This document shows positions 39,019 through 41,474 of a stretch of DNA of 64,000 bases, one piece after another. Under the pieces are notes generated by a model. The model did no database searches. It worked only from the letters and a program-made list of their open reading frames with translations, and was not told the origin of the DNA. Position 1 is the first letter of the stretch. Every line of letters begins with the position of its first letter. This stretch comes from Modestobacter sp. Leaf380 (GTDB lineage: Bacteria > Actinomycetota > Actinomycetes > Mycobacteriales > Geodermatophilaceae), in the NCBI RefSeq assembly GCF_001424485.1, contig NZ_LMQC01000022.1:1-64000 (forward strand). Direction: 5' to 3'. A program made the position numbers and the translations under genes.

Positions 39019-39053
39019 AGTGGTGCCCAGTGGGGGCCAGTGGGTTACTGTGG
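39019..39053 (+). promoter_or_regulatory. MraZ operator: four GTGG boxes at 10-bp spacing
   Basis: GTGG starts at 39020, 39030, 39040 and 39050, one helical turn apart, the first three inside AGTGG and the last inside TGTGG. Repeats of this kind and spacing are the binding sites of MraZ before its own operon in other bacteria. A TACTGT -10-like hexamer (39046-39051) lies inside the array, so binding would block the promoter. The mraZ start is 75 nt downstream. Confidence 0.85.
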
Positions 39054-39127
39054 CGCCGGATGGAGAGCCAGGGTCCGCAGGGGGTCCTGCGAGGTCCACG
39101 GGAAGACGAGGTGGGGGTGGTGGTCCG

Positions 39128-39562
39128 GTGTTCCTCGGCAGCCACGCGCTCCGCCTCGACGAGAAGGGCCGCATGGCCCTCCCCGTCCGCTTCCGCGAGC
39201 TCACCGCGAGCGGCGTCGTGCTGACCAAGGGCAAGGAGCGCTGCATCTACGCGCTCACCCACCAGCGCGTCGCCGAGATCCAGCGCCAGCGCGCCGCCGC
39301 CATGCCCGCGGACACCGTCCAGGGCCGCGCGTTCAGCCGACTGGGCTTCGGCTCGATGGTCGAGCTGGAGCCGGACAAGGCCGGCCGCATCACGCTCCCC
39401 GCCGGTCTGCGCGCCTACGCCGGCCTGGACCGCGACGTCGTCGTGGTCGGGGTCGACACCCGCTTCGAGATCTGGGACGCCGTCACCTGGGACGCCTACG
39501 TGGAGGAGCAGGAGGCCGCGTTCGCGGCGAGCGAGAGCGAGGGGATGCCGACCCTGTCCTGA
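39128..39562 (+). CDS. mraZ: Transcriptional regulator MraZ
   Basis: 144 aa, two AbrB-like halves. The first is FLGSHALRLDEKGRMALPVRFRE, the second LGFGSMVELEPDKAGRITLPAGLRAYAGL, each with the D-x-x-G-R motif. It forms a ring that binds direct repeats in its promoter and represses the dcw operon. GTG at 39128 is chosen because the family begins (M/V)FLG. It is the first gene of the cluster, with four-box operator upstream and an unusually long 934-nt interval before rsmH. Confidence 0.95.
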   Translation: MFLGSHALRLDEKGRMALPVRFRELTASGVVLTKGKERCIYALTHQRVAEIQRQRAAAMPADTVQGRAFSRLGFGSMVELEPDKAGRITLPAGLRAYAGLDRDVVVVGVDTRFEIWDAVTWDAYVEEQEAAFAASESEGMPTLS

Positions 39563-39671
39563 GCCGGCGTCCGGGACGTCCGTCGTCCCCACCGGCCCCC
39601 ACCCCGACCCCCGCGCCCCACTCGGCACCACCGCACACAGCACCACCGCACCCAGCACGACCGAGCCCCAC

Positions 39672-39696
39672 CCGAGCCGACTTCCCCGCGGCTCGG
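39672..39696 (+). ncRNA. mraW RNA motif, hairpin 1
   Basis: 8-bp stem CCGAGCCG / CGGCTCGG around the 9-nt loop ACTTCCCCG. The loop carries the CUUCCCC sequence that defines the mraW RNA motif, a conserved structure in actinobacteria upstream of mraW (rsmH). First of three here. Confidence 0.8.
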
Positions 39697-39706
39697 ACCC
39701 GGACCG

Positions 39707-39729
39707 CCAGCCGACTTCCCCGCGGCTGG
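39707..39729 (+). ncRNA. mraW RNA motif, hairpin 2
   Basis: 7-bp stem CCAGCCG / CGGCTGG around the identical ACTTCCCCG loop. Compared with hairpin 1, the stem differs by paired change (GAGCCG/CGGCTC to CAGCCG/CGGCTG), which supports structure in RNA. Confidence 0.8.
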
Positions 39730-39860
39730 AGACCGGCGGAGCACGGAGGCGGTGCCACCCGGGACGCGACAGCCCGACCAGCCCGACCAGTCCGATCAGC
39801 ACCACCCGCACGACGGCAGCACCTGCTCCCTGACCCCGAGCAGCAGCGGACCTCGGTGCG

Positions 39861-39900
39861 GGGCCCCTCCTGGCGCACTTCCCCGGCGCCAGGCGGGCCC
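39861..39900 (+). ncRNA. mraW RNA motif, hairpin 3
   Basis: 8-bp inner stem CCTGGCGC / GCGCCAGG (39869-39893) around ACTTCCCCG, with an outer GGCCC/GGGCC stem after a small internal loop. The stem sequence is unrelated to hairpins 1 and 2 while the loop is identical. Confidence 0.8.
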
Positions 39901-39952
39901 CGCCCGCGAGGACCACGGGACGCGACACCAGATCGACGCGAGACCAGCGAGA

Positions 39953-40014
39953 CCAGCAGGACGGCAGTGCAGCAGGACGGCAGTGCAGCAGGACGGCAGT
40001 GCAGCAGGACGGCA
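39953..40014. repeat. 16-bp tandem repeat, about 3.9 copies
   Basis: ACGGCAGTGCAGCAGG is repeated exactly at 39961, 39977 and 39993, with partial copies on both sides. Head-to-tail copies without spacers, so not a CRISPR. Confidence 0.9.
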
Positions 40015-40496: not shown

Positions 40497-41474
40497 ATGA
40501 GCGCAGACGAGCCGCGCGAGCCCGCGCTGCACGTCCCCGTGCTGCTCGACCGGGTCGTGGAGCTGCTCGGCCCCGCCTGCAGCACCGACGGCGCGGTCCT
40601 CGTGGACTGCACGCTGGGCCTGGCCGGCCACACGCTGGCCATGCTGGACGCGCACCCCGGCCTGCGCGTGATCGGCCTGGACCGCGACCCCGACGCCCGC
40701 GCCGAGGCCGCCCGCCGGATCGCCGCCGCCGGGCACGGCGACCGGGTCACCCTGGTCCCCGCCGTCTTCGACGAGCTCCCCGAGGTGCTCGCCGAGCTCG
40801 GGGTCACCGAGGTGCAGGGCGTGCTGCTGGACCTCGGGGTCTCCTCGCTGCAGCTCGACCGGCCCAGCCGGGGCTTCAGCTACTCCGCCGACGCGCCGCT
40901 GGACATGCGGATGGACCCCAGTGGCCCGCTGACCGCCGCCGACGTCGTCAACACCTACCCGCACGGCCAGCTGGCCCGGGTCCTGTCCACCTACGGCGAG
41001 GAGCGCTTCGCCGGCAGGATCGCCTCGGCGATCCTCCGGGAGCGCGAGAAGCAGCCCTTCACCACCACCGGCCGCCTGGCCGAGCTGGTCCGCGACTCCA
41101 TCCCCGCCGCCACCCGGCGGACCGGCGGACACCCCGCCAAGCGCACCTTCCAGGCGCTGCGGATCGAGGTCAACGACGAGCTGGGCGTGCTGACCCGGGT
41201 GCTCCCCGCCGCCGTCGACGCGCTGGCCGTGGGCGGCCGGATCGTCGTCATCACCTTCCACTCCCTCGAGGACCGGATCACCAAGCAGGCCCTCGCCGTC
41301 GGCACCACCGACTCCACGCCGCACGGGATGCCGGTGCCGATGCCCGAGCACGCCCCGACCATGCGGCTGCTCACCCGCGGCGGCGAGGCCCCGAGCGAGG
41401 CCGAGACCACCGTCAACCCCCGCGCGGCCTCGGCCCGGGTCCGCGCCGCTGAACGCACCCGGAGGGCTGCCTGA
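40497..41474 (+). CDS. rsmH: 16S rRNA (cytosine1402-N4)-methyltransferase
   Basis: 325 aa, normal length. HVPVLLDRVVELL at the start, VDCTLGLAGHTLAML (SAM motif I, with Leu-Ala for the usual Gly-Gly), IGLDRDPDA, GVLLDLGVSSLQLDRPSRGFSY, and KRTFQALRIEVNDEL with the C-terminal VITFHSLEDRITK are all family marks. It methylates C1402 of 16S rRNA. ATG at 40497 has GAGAGGA upstream. Its stop overlaps the ftsL start by one base. Confidence 0.95.
   Translation: MSADEPREPALHVPVLLDRVVELLGPACSTDGAVLVDCTLGLAGHTLAMLDAHPGLRVIGLDRDPDARAEAARRIAAAGHGDRVTLVPAVFDELPEVLAELGVTEVQGVLLDLGVSSLQLDRPSRGFSYSADAPLDMRMDPSGPLTAADVVNTYPHGQLARVLSTYGEERFAGRIASAILREREKQPFTTTGRLAELVRDSIPAATRRTGGHPAKRTFQALRIEVNDELGVLTRVLPAAVDALAVGGRIVVITFHSLEDRITKQALAVGTTDSTPHGMPVPMPEHAPTMRLLTRGGEAPSEAETTVNPRAASARVRAAERTRRAA

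Follow-up and report, generated by a model that had tools for sequence, protein, structure and literature searches.

The closest described system to the locus studied here is the mraW RNA (Rfam RF01746), which lies in the interval 5' of rsmH (mraW) in actinobacteria, is typed by Rfam as Cis-reg, and is modelled as one long hairpin with an apical CCUGRCGC-ACUUCCCC-GCGCCAGG hairpin. It was described by Weinberg et al. 2010 (PMC2864571), and the relevant passage of a 2017 paper still called its function unknown (PMC5640933). Passages of papers on Corynebacterium report that the C. glutamicum motif is transcribed, with a mapped 5' end inside the motif (PMC3890552, PMC4046766), that the motif lies 5' of the mapped rsmH start in C. 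diphtheriae (PMC5784534), and, as a citation of Maeda 2016 in PMC8247434, that RNase III cleaves the C. glutamicum mraZ mRNA. Because these 5' ends and starts lie in or 3' of the motif, some rsmH messages may lack the hairpin. In the literature passages on the mraW motif, whose coverage leaves out most subscription journals, neither hairpin arrays nor the gene called X below are mentioned. New here, on the evidence of genome comparison, is the predicted hairpin before the unlinked gene X.

The window, by which we mean the whole stretch of 64,000 nucleotides analysed, has its best named match in Klenkia soli of the Geodermatophilaceae (RsmH 85%). It shares with the mraW RNA the position 5' of rsmH, the apical hairpin and, in its third hairpin, a candidate outer helix; unlike the single long hairpin modelled by Rfam, it has three loops, and in its relatives the same loop marks gene X too. 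The features of the locus are as follows.

39128..39563, + strand: mraZ, GTG start, 5' neighbour of the hairpins (Pfam PF02381 MraZ, 4.6e-29)
Stem 39672-39679, loop 39680-39688, stem 39689-39696, + strand: hairpin 1 (hp1), 8 bp CCGAGCCG/CGGCTCGG, loop ACTTCCCCG
Stem 39707-39713, loop 39714-39722, stem 39723-39729, + strand: hairpin 2 (hp2), 7 bp CCAGCCG/CGGCTGG, loop ACTTCCCCG
39848..39915, + strand: hairpin 3 (hp3) with its long candidate outer helix, a divergent RF01746 (mraW) match and inverted repeat (I1) with 29-nt arms, 76% complementary
Stem 39869-39876, loop 39877-39885, stem 39886-39893, + strand: apical part of hp3, 8 bp CCTGGCGC/GCGCCAGG, loop ACTTCCCCG, the stem of canonical mraW RNA
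40497..41474, + strand: open reading frame of rsmH (mraW), 16S rRNA methyltransferase, 3' neighbour of the hairpins, 85% identical to Klenkia soli (best segment)

Within the mraZ-rsmH leader (933-934 nt, 75% G+C), ACUUCCCCG caps all three perfect hairpins between 39672 and 39893. When the leader was scanned for perfect stems of at least 7 bp with a 9-nt loop, exactly hp1, hp2 and hp3 were returned, so the first-pass annotation was right in describing identical loops on three different perfect stems; 2000 dinucleotide shuffles of the leader contained on average 0.14 such hairpins each, and none had a CTTCCCC loop or two equal loops. Taken alone, CTTCCCC turns up in the window about as often as chance predicts (8 matches vs 6.87 expected), and its 3 matches on the + strand are all loops of hp1-hp3. 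The minimum-energy RNA fold of 39640-39925 includes the three hairpins (z -3.24, with 0/200 shuffles equally stable), and in this fold the C and G of each loop are also paired across UUCCCC. A 28-nt stretch of hp1 resembles hp2 at 86%, so that, judged from the window alone, the two could come from a single duplication event; the evidence for covariation is drawn from relatives. Other repeats were seen nearby: a perfect 16-nt tandem repeat CAGCAGGACGGCAGTG (3.8 copies) at 39954-40014 inside the long leader, and, 5' of mraZ at 39022-39056, repeated TGGG-type boxes which by eye resemble MraZ boxes. The window's leader, at 934 nt, is the longest of 27 Geodermatophilaceae leaders (324-934 nt, median 449), and those of seven other Klenkia measure 435-530 nt. 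The first-pass annotation had called this a good model locus, but with so long a leader the genome is hardly the best one.

The same annotation had assigned all three hairpins to the mraW motif, and the Rfam covariance model carries this assignment for hp3 only, aligning 39848-39915 with model positions 18-87 of 107 at 33.7 bits (E 5.3e-5 for the 941 bases searched), which is below the gathering score of 50 and hence short of membership by score. For this reason hp3 is absent from a default Rfam scan of the whole window at gathering score, which listed nothing, and hp1 and hp2 gave no match to RF01746 even at E <= 10. The apical hairpin with the CUUCCCC loop is nevertheless present in hp1, hp2 and hp3, and the location is that given for RF01746, before rsmH (here at 40497) in Actinomycetales. 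Only hp3 combines the CCTGGCGC/GCGCCAGG stem with the complementary 29-nt arms, whereas hp1 and hp2 have neither a CCUG/CAGG stem nor an outer helix. Low scores are common among relatives: RF01746 reaches its cut-off in 24 of 60 relatives and matches 55 at E <= 0.1, and in 394 genomes of the class 122 reach the cut-off and 256 match at E <= 0.001. We therefore classify hp3, by position and apical hairpin and in spite of its score, as a divergent mraW-type RNA, and hp1 and hp2, whose predicted structures have only the loop and the stem geometry in common with it, as mraW-loop hairpins outside RF01746.

To follow the loop through relatives, rsmH loci were taken from the best 80 named records among the matches listed and from 59 further relatives (rsmH was present in 60/60 relatives), which gave 136 distinct leaders when identical leaders were counted once. 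CTTCCCC is present in 120/136 of them and its most frequent non-overlapping permutation in 27, so that the exact loop is absent from 16. Over these leaders, with no hand choice, 176/190 CUUCCCC sites top a stem in which 7 or all 8 of the 8 pairs form, compared with 6/202 sites of 18 other permutations of the same letters, two permutations that overlap the motif (43/84 and 5/14 sites) being set apart from this control. Covariation was assessed in two alignments: 40 distinct 25-nt hairpins are 92.5% paired, and each of the 8 pairs has seen both of its partners replaced (covariation 0.727, shuffles 0.224), and 30 distinct 26-nt hairpins are 92.9% paired, with changes on both sides at 6/8 pairs (0.378 vs 0.171). 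These sets were gathered by exact loop, and the unbiased measure of loop constancy is the leader count above; they took in 70/99 distinct hairpin strings after near-duplicates and a few poorly pairing ones had been excluded by hand, and 11/201 sites had scored below 12 at collection, for which the permutation comparison serves as the hand-free recount. The stems range from CCUGGCGC/GCGCCAGG via CCGAGCCG/CGGCUCGG to UCUGGUGU/ACAUCAGA. The fifth pair, counted from the outer end, switches between G-C, A-U and non-standard forms, and since the non-standard ones (11/40 and 10/30 rows) are by inspection nearly all A.C, this position tolerates or prefers A.C. The alignments of relatives thereby bear out the proposal, made from the window, that the mraZ-rsmH interval carries selected RNA structure in which the loop is constant and the stems covary.

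Two models built from the collected hairpins, R1 and R2, extended the search to whole genomes. In the window R1 scores hp1 at 40.1, hp2 at 36.9 and hp3 at 42.2 bits, having been made from such hairpins; it matches 40/41 relatives at E <= 1 and 60/197 class genomes at E <= 0.01. R2 matches 152/197 class genomes at E <= 0.05 and leaves 45/197 without a match at that threshold, some of which are found by R1. The window's genome holds the three hairpins and two weaker R1 matches (26.2 and 22.2 bits), the former of which recurs at the same place in seven Geodermatophilaceae (L170) and has no CTTCCCC loop.

The constancy of the loop bears on what might read it. A pyrimidine loop that is short and unvarying, on a stem that can be exchanged, would suit kissing with a small RNA or another message that carries GGGGAAG, as has been proposed for the C-rich loops of 6C RNA in actinobacteria. 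A pairing partner would, however, let the loop co-change, and its retention in most leaders across the class makes a protein likelier than an RNA as its reader. In cis, the complement GGGGAAG is not conserved at loci with a located mraZ, in the stretch that opens 300 nt 5' of mraZ and takes in the first 60 nt of rsmH; it occurs 14 times over all these rsmH loci, to which the search was confined, and is rarer than other words of the same letters (GGGGAGG-type 62, GAAGGGG 27, duplicates kept). We consider RNA-RNA pairing an unlikely explanation that deserves to be kept in mind. Mimicry of 23S rRNA was rejected, as the genome's own 23S (L220) holds one sense CUUCCCC, presumably in helix 89, which is chance level.

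The number of copies separates the family from other lineages. In a core Geodermatophilaceae set, set by hand as the window and family relatives with RsmH at least 76% identical (n=28), 27 distinct leaders have a located mraZ, 25 of them with three paired copies and 2 with two; one further leader, in which mraZ was not located (L116), has three copies, which brings the total with three exact-loop copies to 26/28. R1 finds a looser copy in one two-copy leader (L137 617-641, 25.7 bits), which would give 27. Eight more genomes under the Geodermatophilaceae label have one CTTCCCC each, and the 83 other leaders in which mraZ and a paired hairpin are both present divide into 74 with one copy and 9 with two. 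Because nearly the whole core set has three copies, the array is, as far as leader comparison can tell, an old trait of the family Geodermatophilaceae. At one Rhodococcus and one Prescottella locus (L084 and L062), two hairpins seem by eye to lie within a single outer GGCCUCUGCCCGA/UCGGACAGGGACC helix.

Extra copies of CUUCCCC were rejected as a general signal: with the best hairpin masked, 108 other leaders hold 17 sites, and permutations give 22, 21, 21 and 16. The extra copies cluster just 3' of the best hairpin (15/91, next permutation 7), with true second hairpins among the 15. Separately, some Streptomyces and Nocardioides, together with two genomes derived from metagenomes, have a second, unpaired CUUCCCC that follows the main hairpin at 22-41 nt (L035, L045, L048, L067, L070, L072, L099).

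The position of the hairpins has to be considered together with the possibility that they are processing or stability elements, which would mark or protect an mRNA end in the mraZ-rsmH interval and so give the two parts different decay rates. Between the mraZ stop and the first loop there are 36-118 nt (median 57) in Geodermatophilaceae and 38-221 nt (median 68) in others. The last loop lies 45 to 619 nt from rsmH, and leader length tracks mainly the rsmH-side distance (r 0.97 and 0.95, vs 0.49 and 0.69 on the mraZ side), although these correlations are partly arithmetic. Such a placement, the mapped 5' end inside the motif and the cited RNase III cleavage of the mraZ mRNA in C. glutamicum would fit a processing role. 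Against it, both distances vary to a similar degree relative to their size (CV 0.34 and 0.36; 0.39 and 0.50), which means that anchoring to mraZ is not strong; the element is nearer to the mraZ end in absolute distance, and nothing beyond that. Moreover, stability calls for stems and would not require the loop to be fixed, RNase III usually needs longer stems than the 7-8 bp seen here, and the hairpin of X sits 5' of its gene. A pure processing element is therefore a minority option in our assessment.

The placement behind mraZ also raises the question of whether MraZ, the operon's own regulator, binds its own message. In nine Streptomyces genomes, five have no MraZ match and four have matches at 22.4-23.1 bits (three just above the 23-bit cut-off), which sit in frames of 648-1310 aa and are not MraZ-like. 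The hairpin before rsmH is retained in 6/9 of these genomes, of which three belong to the five without any MraZ match and three have the marginal matches in long frames. From this comparison the predicted hairpin does not need mraZ, and gene X is unlinked to mraZ. MraZ as the loop reader is thus disfavoured, being largely contradicted by Streptomyces with a hairpin and no MraZ match, and we regard autoregulation as highly improbable.

A second home of the hairpin was found in relatives. In Geodermatophilaceae, three genomes that represent two genera have R1 copies (36.4, 36.4 and 29.0 bits) 5' of homologous, uncharacterised genes ("X"), and RF01746 itself matches one X leader (G028:C1:398591-398687, 33.3 bits, adjoining X). 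The hairpin precedes X in 47/53 close homologues vs 0/31 distant ones, the latter being an imperfect control in that many align inside longer frames, with the 200-260 nt upstream partly coding. In the first set CTTCCCC lies about 49-61 nt 5' of the aligned start in 11/11 close and 0/24 distant homologues; the 225-bit line between close and distant was drawn after these first 11, and the second set, from 112 family genomes, tests it on new genomes (CTTCCCC at 41-66 nt in 36/42 close and 0/7 distant). Six close homologues lack the exact loop, of which four are about one base off and two have no recognisable loop. The stems covary here as well (34 distinct, covariation 0.394 vs a shuffle mean of 0.158 and maximum of 0.222). 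In the 46 measured cases the loop lies at -49 to -66, and a candidate in-frame start codon follows 19-28 nt 3' of the hairpin in 46/46, with SD-like bases between hairpin and start in 44/46 (loose pattern, no control). An element GCAACGATYC was also observed about 150 nt 5' of X in 37/46 X leaders (no control; L190-L200, L221-L262), and at one rsmH locus only (L071).

No Pfam family names X, comparison of two X proteins with NCBIfam gave nothing near a cut-off (for one of the two, 12.6 bits against 215), and PDB sequences gave no match better than E 1.2, the profile for the homologue and PDB work having been built from 9 of the first 11 X proteins. X was found in 0/9 genomes of Klenkia, to which we assign the window, and not in the window's genome; the recurrence of the loop at unlinked sites, as expected of a loop-reading regulon, is therefore seen in relatives through X and not in the window's genome.

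The X leaders bear on two further explanations. If a factor bound the double-stranded site as an operator or promoter part, with the palindrome secondary, the mapped start in or 3' of the motif in two Corynebacterium species would be accounted for, but stems that vary in sequence and yet stay paired are needless for a factor that reads DNA, and the X site lies 43-59 nt 3' of a promoter-like CTAYNNT in 33/46 leaders (loose pattern, no control); we judge a DNA-level role improbable. A small-molecule riboswitch would agree with the leader position and with the Rfam type of mraW, but hp1, hp2 and the X hairpins have only a short stem and a loop as common features, while copy number and spacing vary, so that there is very little to recommend it.

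Further members of a regulon were sought among 20 + 15 places in the matches listed, and those inspected, aside from rsmH and X, seem by eye to be coding, terminator-like or single cases (L284 left out), for which they were rejected. In two Klenkia genomes (L177, L179) a CTTCCCC hairpin (29.1 and 24.3 bits) lies 5' of a gene that by eye resembles an NrdJ-type ribonucleotide reductase gene, and in L179 this hairpin stands behind an nrdR-like gene.

On balance, we favour the explanation that a trans-acting factor, most likely an RNA-binding protein, reads the CUUCCCC loop and controls these mRNAs after transcription. The CUUCCCC loop is probably the recognition mark of this putative regulator, since the same hairpin precedes a second, unlinked gene in relatives, and reading in trans is what one would expect of a motif that recurs on the coding strand at two unlinked loci, on stems that can be exchanged and in one to three copies. 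The element is presumably transcribed in the window's species, and the stems would serve as display stands for the single-stranded loop, to which a factor, putatively a protein other than MraZ and possibly the same one at both loci, would bind and act on translation or message stability. In the mraZ-rsmH message, which concerns division and the cell wall, it would find the element behind the mraZ stop, usually once in the sampled actinobacteria and thrice in Geodermatophilaceae. In the X leader, a factor bound 19-28 nt above the candidate start would border on the 30S site, and this placement suggests control of ribosome entry. At mraZ-rsmH the distance from the last loop to rsmH is so variable that a direct block of the rsmH ribosome site is unlikely, which makes message stability, or mraZ, a better candidate for what is controlled than ribosome entry at rsmH; one mechanism for both loci is not assured. 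Points against a loop reader are the exact loop missing in 16/136 rsmH leaders and 6/53 X homologues, and the lack of X in the window's genus.

We also put forward, more tentatively and at less than even chances, that the mraW RNA is not private to rsmH and may be where a regulator shared by Actinomycetes reads the loop, its regulon comprising mraZ-rsmH and, in Geodermatophilaceae, X. Copy number would then set the dose, with one copy in most lineages, two (apparently in one outer helix) in Rhodococcus types and three in Geodermatophilaceae. If true, this would add a trans-acting layer of control at the RNA level at the head of the actinobacterial division cluster. The loop arrays and the second unlinked gene turn an orphan mraW RNA into a concrete claim, namely that the 7-nt loop is a predicted binding site, and they supply a bait (loop vs scrambled loop on the same stem) and two reporters (the mraZ-rsmH interval and the X leader). 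Lineages with one, two and three copies allow dosage to be tested where the operon for division and the cell wall begins.

Among known systems, the actinobacterial 6C RNA has C-rich hairpin loops, as here, but it is a small RNA in its own right, and its C runs are at least six long. Other parallels are CsrA/RsmE and the MS2 coat operator, in which RNA-binding proteins read loops, with several hairpins per message. Their loop sequences differ from CUUCCCC, and the reader protein is only putative here; as in the leaders described above, a fixed loop is carried on an exchangeable stem, sometimes repeated in the leader or placed beside the ribosome site.
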